64,000 nucleotides of DNA from Verrucomicrobiota bacterium (GTDB taxonomy: Bacteria; Verrucomicrobiota; Verrucomicrobiia; Limisphaerales; JADLHS01). Shown one piece after another: positions 1 to 13,943 of this stretch. Position 1 is the stretch's first letter. The number at the start of each line of letters is the position of its first letter. Both the position numbers and the translations under genes were made by a program. The notes beneath the pieces were generated by a model, which saw nothing but the letters and a program-made list of their open reading frames with translations, did no database searches and was not told where the DNA came from. Location: positions 62,001 through 126,000 of the forward strand of contig JAKQDQ010000028.1 of assembly GCA_029573725.1 (NCBI GenBank), in the 5' to 3' direction.

Positions 1-24
1 CAGCGAACGTGAGTTCGCTCCAAC
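1..24. repeat. partial palindromic repeat cut by the window edge
   Basis: The first bases read CAGCGAACGTGAGTTCGCTC. They closely match one arm of the inverted-repeat element inside aroA at 13371-13439 (GGCAGCGGACGTGAGTCGGC). This looks like a degenerate copy of the same dispersed family, here outside any gene. Only one arm is visible. Confidence 0.45.
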
Positions 25-12434: not shown

Positions 12435-13943
12435 TCAGGTTGCCAGCAAATCTGCCCCGGCCAACGGTCGGACGCGAACATCATTGCGCACCTCCCAAAT
12501 TTGGGCGCCGCACCCGTGCGGCGGTGGGGCGGCCAGTTTCTGGAAAAAATTCGGGAAGGTTTTTTTCACGCAGGACGGATGCCGCAGCCGGATGCCCGGC
12601 ACTTTCAGCCCGAGCATGGCAAAACACAGGGCCATGCGGTGGTCGTCGTACGTTTCAATTTCGGCGCCATGCAACCTCCCCGGATAAATGGTCAGGGTGT
12701 CATCCCGCTCGGCCACAGTCGCGCCGCACCGGGTCAATTCCGTGCGGAGTGCGGCAACCCGTTCGCATTCCTGCACCCGCAACCGGCCCAGGTCCGTGAA
12801 CTGGATTTCCGGCGTGCGCTGCGGGAGCCCCCACCCGCCGGACTCATCGGCGGCAATCACCATGGCCGTCATGATGCTGTCGCCCAGCTGTCCCTCCCGC
12901 GAAACCCTGCCCGGCAACGGCAGGAACGCGGGAAACTCGGCATCAATTTGCCAGCCCGAGGTTGGCCAGTTGCGGACTTGCAGCGCCAGCAAGTCCCGGA
13001 AGCCGTCATCCGCCGCCGGAAGCGAACCGTGGCGGGCCCGGATGCAGAGCTGTTGAAAATGAGCGGCCTTGGTGGTGCTCCGGGGGGACTCCTCTGCCAC
13101 GGCATGCATCCAGCAGCCTGCCGAAATCAGCCAGTTGGCCCCCCAGAAATAACTGCCGCTGCTGGCGTCCGGTTCAATCTGGAATTTTCCCCCCTCCCAC
13201 GGAAACACTTCCACCAACTTTTCCGTCATCTGCACGTATGGCGCTTCCTCGGCATCGTTGCCTGCCACCTTCACGTCCCAACCGCCATGCCTGGCGGAAA
13301 GTTTCAACGCCGAAACGAATTGTGAACTCTCGAAAAGGCTCACCGTGCAGGAACGCCGCCCTTGATTTGTGGCAGCGGACGCGAGTCCGCTCTGACAAAT
13401 CTCCGCGCCTCCAGCTTGAGCCGACTCACGTCCGCTGCCGCCAAAAATCGTCACCGGCAACTTGTCATTTCCGCTTTCCGATTCAACGCGATACCCCAGC
13501 TCGCGCAGCGCCTGGAATAATTCCGCCTGGGGGCGTTCGTGCATCCGCGGCACCCCGTGCAGGCGGTAAACGCCCGACCCGAGGCACACCAGCGCCGCCA
13601 GAAACCGGGCCGCCGTGCCAGCGTTGCCCACAAACAACTCCAGCGGCCGGGCTGCCGTGCCCGCGTGAGGAATCTTTCCACCCCGCCCTTGCACCGTGAT
13701 GGTGCGATTGCCCGGCTCATCCGGATCATTTTCCACGCGCAGGTCGAAGCCCAGCGCGCGCAATGCCGCGGTCATCACCTGCGTGTCCTCGCTCCAAAGT
13801 GCGCCGTTGAGGGTCACCTCGCCCGCCGCCAGCGCCGCCAGGACGAGCGCGCGGTTCGTGATGCTCTTCGAGCCGGGCACGGTGATTCCCGCGCGCACCG
13901 GACCGGGCAGCGGCATCATTTCAATGAGGTCAGGAAGCGCCAT
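12435..13943 (-). CDS. aroA: 3-phosphoshikimate 1-carboxyvinyltransferase (EPSP synthase)
   Basis: 502 residues, longer than the usual 430-450. It joins shikimate-3-phosphate and PEP in the shikimate pathway. Landmarks: VPGSKSITNRALVLAALA, LFVGNAGTAARFLAALV, RMHERPQAELFQALRELG, FESSQFVSALKL, and the closing ETYDDHRMALCFAMLGLKV. Residues 169-191 are an insertion encoded by an inverted-repeat element (13371-13439), placed between IFGG and the SSQF block; it replaces nothing obvious, and both flanks are conserved. There is also a bulge after the DASSGSYFWGANW motif. Its position after tyrA supports the pathway assignment. Confidence 0.95.
   Translation of the reverse strand: MALPDLIEMMPLPGPVRAGITVPGSKSITNRALVLAALAAGEVTLNGALWSEDTQVMTAALRALGFDLRVENDPDEPGNRTITVQGRGGKIPHAGTAARPLELFVGNAGTAARFLAALVCLGSGVYRLHGVPRMHERPQAELFQALRELGYRVESESGNDKLPVTIFGGSGRESAQAGGAEICQSGLASAATNQGRRSCTVSLFESSQFVSALKLSARHGGWDVKVAGNDAEEAPYVQMTEKLVEVFPWEGGKFQIEPDASSGSYFWGANWLISAGCWMHAVAEESPRSTTKAAHFQQLCIRARHGSLPAADDGFRDLLALQVRNWPTSGWQIDAEFPAFLPLPGRVSREGQLGDSIMTAMVIAADESGGWGLPQRTPEIQFTDLGRLRVQECERVAALRTELTRCGATVAERDDTLTIYPGRLHGAEIETYDDHRMALCFAMLGLKVPGIRLRHPSCVKKTFPNFFQKLAAPPPHGCGAQIWEVRNDVRVRPLAGADLLAT
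13371..13439. repeat. 69-bp inverted-repeat element inserted in frame in aroA
   Basis: The left arm GGCAGCGGACGCGAGTCCGC (13371-13390, continuing TC) and the reverse complement of 13418-13439 (GGCAGCGGACGTGAGTCGGC, continuing TC) match at 20 of 22 positions around a 25-base spacer. The length is 23 codons, so the aroA frame is kept. A related arm occurs at the window start (1-24). The translated segment (about residues 169-191) is absent from E. coli AroA. Confidence 0.75.

Follow-up and report, generated by a model that had tools for sequence, protein, structure and literature searches.

A degenerate REPIN in frame within aroA of a Limisphaerales bacterium, and an AroA loop occupied by several unrelated palindrome families

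Palindromic repeats inside bacterial genes

REPs are named for their extragenic position. In P. fluorescens SBW25, 14 of 1,067 REP 16-mers overlap genes, and the REPINs described there are dispersed copies of an inverted REP doublet with a spacer, with REPs also flanking a RAYT gene (PMC3116915, Bertels and Rainey 2011). The TnpA-REP proteins of E. coli, Stenotrophomonas and Marinomonas recognise as substrate a GTAG-tagged hairpin that lies near the transposase gene (PMC8266576). In-frame GTAG REPs within genes were described in 2013, with the verrucomicrobium Opitutus terrae as the richest genome in the main text of Di Nocera et al. (PMC3733652). According to that main text, GTAG REP dimers within genes encode 20-30 residues, the host genes include uvrA and DNA ligase, and different REPs occur at about the same site in a single case, Xanthomonas recB; aroA is not mentioned there. 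A literature search on in-frame palindromes in Verrucomicrobia found nothing relevant besides this paper. Rickettsia palindromic elements (RPE), ~150 bp as first reported, also lie in frame in protein genes, where the encoded peptide is tolerated (PMC10969869).

A degenerate REPIN in aroA

The window, the whole 64,000-nucleotide stretch analysed (C30:62001-126000), belongs to a 4.28-Mb draft genome of 187 contigs (G000), whose relatives are MAGs of Limisphaerales / Verrucomicrobia subdivision 3. The initial annotation had described inverted arms with a 25-nt spacer in frame within aroA, and a related arm outside genes at the very start of the window. Both are present (Table 1): the first is an inverted repeat of 22/25/22 nt that leaves the frame unbroken, and the second is the end of a REP at C30:61995-62025 (GTAGCAGCGAACGTGAGTTCGCTCC) that lies between genes and is 90% identical to one arm of a copy in a PNKP gene (see below). 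A repeat finder lengthens the aroA arms to 13366-13392 / 13418-13444 (27 nt, 85% complementary). Since every arm is itself a small hairpin, a feature that the initial annotation had missed, the element resolves into two inverted REPs with a short spacer between them, the build of a REPIN. The outer GTAG tags are degenerate in this copy; the other doublets of the genome have them intact, as do most aroA copies of types 1 and 2 in relatives. The window element is read as a degenerate REPIN made of two inverted GTAG-type REPs.

Looser matches to the arm motif are as frequent in the window as in shuffles, as would suit a chance hairpin arising from GC-rich coding sequence. The single-stranded element, however, folds at -24.4 kcal/mol against -12.7 +/- 2.5 in shuffles (z -4.6; 0 of 200 equal it), copies of the same family occur elsewhere in the genome, and the nearest relatives lack the insert. 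A chance origin was rejected on the fold and the further copies, and merits next to no credence.

The aroA ORF matches Pfam PF00275 at 1.1e-63 and TIGR01356 at 4e-72, the latter with 243 bits, under the cut-off of 287. The gene nevertheless looks intact as judged from its sequence, because the residues invariant across 46 relatives (including K26, S27, R31, R137, S206-Q208, D355, E392, R395, R436 and K461) take in those that we would expect at the active site. The AlphaFold model has a mean pLDDT of 87.9, and the one stretch under 50 sits between strands 164-167 and 197-202. For this reason the insert is predicted to form a flexible, disordered bulge from a beta-hairpin that closely precedes the substrate-binding SSQ motif, which we presume by homology to have the S3P-binding role of its E. 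coli AroA counterpart. Foldseek superpositions onto solved EPSP synthases gave an rmsd of ~4 A and more, so the loop was placed using the model itself together with a sequence alignment.

Table 1. Features of the window, same-family REPs elsewhere in its genome, and palindrome types in the AroA loop of the order. Positions are those of the window unless a contig is named.
Feature	Position or carriers	Strand	Remarks
aroA (EPSP synthase), host gene	12435..13943	-	502 aa ORF; Pfam PF00275, TIGR01356
REPIN (REP doublet)	13371..13439	-	69 nt; in-frame AroA residues 169-191
REP arm, gene's 3' side	13371..13392	-	hairpin GCGGAC-N4-GTCCGC; outer GTAG tag degenerate
Spacer between the two REPs	13393..13417	-	25 nt; like G009 and G006 aroA-copy spacers (..GTCAGAGC)
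Second REP arm, inverted, gene's 5' side	13418..13439	-	hairpin GCGGAC-N4-GTCCGC
AroA residues 174-193	13365..13424	-	sole segment of AlphaFold model with pLDDT <50
SSQ motif, residues 206-208	13320..13328	-	13-15 residues past the disordered segment
Single same-family REP, intergenic	1..24	+	GTAG tag just outside window (C30:61995-62025)
Family REP	C30:61995		arm at window 1-24
Family REP	C71:529964		
Family REP	C87:40864		
Family REP, full doublet	C149:100929		in frame within PNKP ORF
Family REPs either side of RAYT-like gene	C73:390806-391417		
Type 1 REPINs in AroA loop	window, G006, G009, G011, G020, G036, G193		
Type 2 in AroA loop	G008, G014, L155		GTAGGGACGCGTTCCACCGCGTCCC
Type 3 in AroA loop	two genes of G002, G005, L157		GAGCGCGGCTCTGTGAGCCGCAGCG
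Type 4 in AroA loop	G010		one
Type 5 in AroA loop	G102, G111, G183		GTAG-tagged pair, two different hairpins, one resembling type 2

Family copies and a RAYT-like gene

The initial annotation had proposed a search of the complete genome for the arms, and they do occur elsewhere in it. With BLAST (best 40 scored candidates), at least about nine further REPs of the family, GTAGCAGC-nGACGTnAGTCn-GCT and variants, were found among the matches listed; relatives have from 3 (G003) to 79 family matches, both strands counted, again among the matches listed. The element therefore shares with known REPINs both dispersed copies and, at C73, REPs of the same kind flanking a RAYT-like gene, the assignment of which lies below cut-off. 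The only NCBIfam match of the encoded protein is to the REP-associated tyrosine transposase NF047646 (45.1 bits vs 80, E 9e-12), and Pfam Y1_Tnp is matched at 17.3 vs a cut-off of 23. It contains PDHIHLVW, an HUH-like motif, and YIMDNARKEGLV, which we take to fit a RAYT. Because of the score below the NCBIfam cut-off it is called RAYT-like only, and its activity is uncertain; the arrangement resembles TnpA-REP in having a GTAG-tagged hairpin near a putative transposase gene. Three near copies of the gene (85-88% identity) occur in G011, each with matching REPs nearby, and RAYT-like genes in several other relatives also have REP variants close by. At 1e-8 no match to the gene was found in the copy-rich relatives G006, G007 and G009, which perhaps are served by other RAYTs or are partial assemblies.

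The initial annotation had likened the element to the palindromes of Rickettsia. In-frame insertion into protein genes, the hallmark of RPE (PMC10969869 and the main text of PMC3733652), is indeed common to both, and to that extent the comparison stands; the GTAG tags, the doublet build and the REPs around a RAYT-like gene, on the other hand, make GTAG-tagged REPs and REPINs with their RAYT gene the better fit. As described, RPE also differ in length and in having no tie to a REP-flanked RAYT. Membership in RPE, or a parallel system that inserts in frame with no REP/RAYT machinery, is very improbable.

Two observations concern individual copies. In the region C73:389500-392500 (L041), two diverged copies of the 3' end of a UbiD-like decarboxylase gene (ADVLDHAT.EIAIGSKLGIDATKKLPGEGFKR.WPPL) enclose the RAYT-like gene. 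The layout looks as though the REP-flanked unit had come in with a partial duplication or had caused it. The PNKP genes of G000 (C149; L042 820-3000) and G062 (L309, L315) are 86-94% identical and have a REPIN at a common site, while PNKP was found in only 11 of 78 genomes. With G000 and G062 assigned to different families (f1 and f52), the gene seems to have been transferred between members of the order; two separate insertions were rejected in favour of gene transfer or common descent.

REPINs inside other genes

Sixty REPINs were sampled in three relatives (G036, G193 and G011), all from the top BLAST matches of a single aroA copy, a choice that may bias the sample toward open spacers. An ORF spanning the REPIN with >=70 aa on either side was found for 41 of the 60, against 0.64-0.70 of control positions in the same loci. 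This departs from the 14 of 1,067 16-mers overlapping genes in SBW25, and the aroA and PNKP copies of the window's own genome are likewise intragenic. Since extragenic placement describes the known REPINs and not their mechanism, the window element is filed as a variant REPIN and not as a plain member. The so-called extragenic repeats of this order live largely inside protein genes.

One reading frame is strongly preferred by the ORF-internal REPINs of these relatives. The 3' arm is read as LTSAAT in 36 of 41 (p 7e-13 vs one third) and the 5' arm as an SSRRES-like peptide in 30 (p 0.002 vs one half). Lengths of 1 mod 3 were found for 28 of the 41 elements inside ORFs and for 7 of the 19 outside (one-sided Fisher 0.022). 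For some loci near contig ends (e.g. L258, L291, L299, L302) the computed centre fell off the element, which was read in translation instead. Pfam matches were obtained for 38 of 40 REPIN-bearing ORFs scanned. They include GatB, class I tRNA synthetase, MnmA, GcvT, MutS, LigA and UvrA domains and PurL (AIRS), as well as FeoB, AcrB, Hen1, restriction-modification proteins, kinases and others. Together with the disorder predicted for the AroA insert, these hosts bear out the earlier proposal that a dispersed palindromic family enters essential enzymes of this lineage in frame, with the insert accommodated in a loop. The rate at which REPINs enter conserved genes (aroA, mutS, purL, ligA, uvrA, gatB, class I tRNA synthetase) is about that of control positions in ORFs, and one frame is preferred; users of alignments or annotations of such proteins should be aware that these include repeat-derived segments.

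In four genomes the MutS stretch ERFVPND...QIALITGPN has 23-24 aa; in the remaining genomes listed it has 37-77 aa. Its palindromes differ between G001, G008/G010, G036/G062, G006 and G011, with type 1 in G009/G193. Inverted-repeat scores of the MutS loops of G009, G193, G120, G004 and G053 were not clearly above shuffles, and type 1 or 5 was assigned there by sequence similarity. Like the AroA loop (below), this one MutS loop appears to have been invaded repeatedly by unrelated palindromes. Common insertion sites also occur in PurL (G036, G193) and in a radical SAM protein (G001, G009, G014), where descent from one insertion may be the explanation.

The GTAG tag of the intact copies, the gene-internal dimers and the uvrA and DNA ligase hosts are all shared with the intragenic REPs in the main text of PMC3733652. 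In contrast to what is described there, several unrelated families fill one AroA and one MutS loop across the order, and a frame preference has been measured; relative to the literature found, and to that main text, these two points and the occurrence of REPINs within genes as often as controls appear to be new.

Empty sites and the occupied AroA loop

Residues 169-191 had been read as an insertion that other AroA orthologues should lack, and the two nearest relatives, G003 and G004, lack them. A 43-row AroA tree joins the window to G003 (97/91) and then to G004 (98/91). Since the window groups with these empty genes, the simplest reading is a gain, probably recent, in its own lineage. In a quick 130-row tree a long branch had separated the window's AroA from its family; the more careful 43-row tree supersedes that placement. 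Likewise, G036 (insert) is sister to G087 (none; 100/94) and G193 (insert) to L133 (none; 99/82). Empty and filled sites differ beyond the element, with substitutions and small length changes in the flanks that blur the exact insertion joints.

The loop lies between LPxxI(F/H)G and CxVSIxESSQF and usually measures 54-55 aa in the order (RMHERP to SSQFAS), with no insert. In a set of ~130 AroA genes from the order, it is occupied by at least four palindrome families that are unrelated in sequence and were gained repeatedly (Table 1). The fewest changes on the 130-row tree are 20 (seven for type 1 and three each for types 2, 3 and 5), counts that do not separate gain from loss and are compatible with a single ancestral insertion, followed in many lineages by divergence or loss and perhaps by exchange through recombination between repeats. 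The ..GTCAGAGC common to the spacers of the window, G009 and G006 also speaks for such an ancestor. Against it, types 1 to 5 are unlike in sequence, most of the order has the uninterrupted loop, and the empty sisters of filled genes at three well-supported places would each demand a clean loss; a single ancestral event is unlikely, and repeated gain is preferred.

An inverted-repeat scan of the 130 aroA genes found 14 with a repeat in the loop and ~3 with one elsewhere inside the gene (L085, L096, L242), the remaining repeats being at or past the stop codon. A binomial test of 14 of 17, with ~9% as the share of the loop, gives 1e-12; this is a guide only, since the relatedness of the genes is ignored and the loop had been noticed beforehand. 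A second variable stretch of AroA (residues ~275-320), considered as another palindrome site, varies in length but was set aside with almost no inverted repeats in the scan.

Survival or aim

Taken together, the insert is very probably a REPIN, a non-autonomous mobile element moved most likely by a RAYT-like gene, that entered aroA in the window's lineage and is translated as ~23 disordered residues. The gene at C73, with the same REP on both sides, would drive the movement, and insertion would be near-random with little sequence preference. Entry into aroA would have been in a stop-free frame, the length of the element leaving the gene's frame intact. Insertions that disrupt the protein would be lost, and the survivors, read in frames with no stops and giving a small polar peptide, would gather in tolerant loops. 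Random insertion followed by such survival would account for hotspots common to unrelated families, and by it the AroA hotspot would reflect selection removing insertions elsewhere in aroA, not the aim of a transposase. Transposition itself, the role of the RAYT as mover, and continued activity of the enzyme with its insert are all inferred.

Alternatively, a transposase or the structure of the host DNA may direct the elements to the loop. The intact 5' GTAG tags of the aroA copies are always in the same codon phase and come after a short similar stretch (ATTTTCGG, ATCTTTGG, ATTCACGG), and in the flanks of REPINs T at -2 and C or G at -1 are weakly favoured. This preference, however, amounts to only ~0.6 bit at -2, and no strong target consensus was found at the insertion flanks; furthermore, types 3 and 4, which have no GTAG tag, occupy the same loop, and the elements are scattered over many genes genome-wide. 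Targeted insertion is unlikely beside random insertion and survival. Similarly unlikely is the idea that core enzymes of Limisphaerales keep dedicated "landing loops" that take up unrelated palindrome families time and again (AroA before SSQ, MutS before TGPN, perhaps PurL, PNKP and radical SAM), through aim or because the disordered inserts are useful; if it were true, mobile palindromes would regularly supply proteins with new segments. These genes offer natural, replicated insertion experiments on which loops of essential enzymes take 20-40 foreign residues, how often, and whether by survival or aim.

Further observations on AroA

Two aroA genes (L069, L077) occur in the single bin G002, and their type 3 inserts sit at the same position; the pair is due either to contamination (7%) or to duplication. 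The aroA match at G077 C98:8067-9314 has an internal TGA and TAG and may be a pseudogene, an assembly error or part of a recoded genome. Three public MAGs titled Akkermansia muciniphila (L130, L143, L159) have an AroA that falls among Limisphaerales, and the records are probably misnamed. The moderately long loops of L236, L242, L163, L093, L119, L235 and L238 form a non-palindromic class that resembles translated tandem repeats (NPESRIQNPES, KAESEKRKAK). Finally, L167, L170, L175-L177, L180, L183, L184, L186-L188 and L190 (mostly Chloroflexi) have a variable AroA stretch ahead of the (C/S)PPxKI strand, with residues like translated simple repeats (e.g. ITDHWPLITDYSK, DDGRQTTDHRPSSIVHRQ); this may be a second landing loop, in a different phylum.
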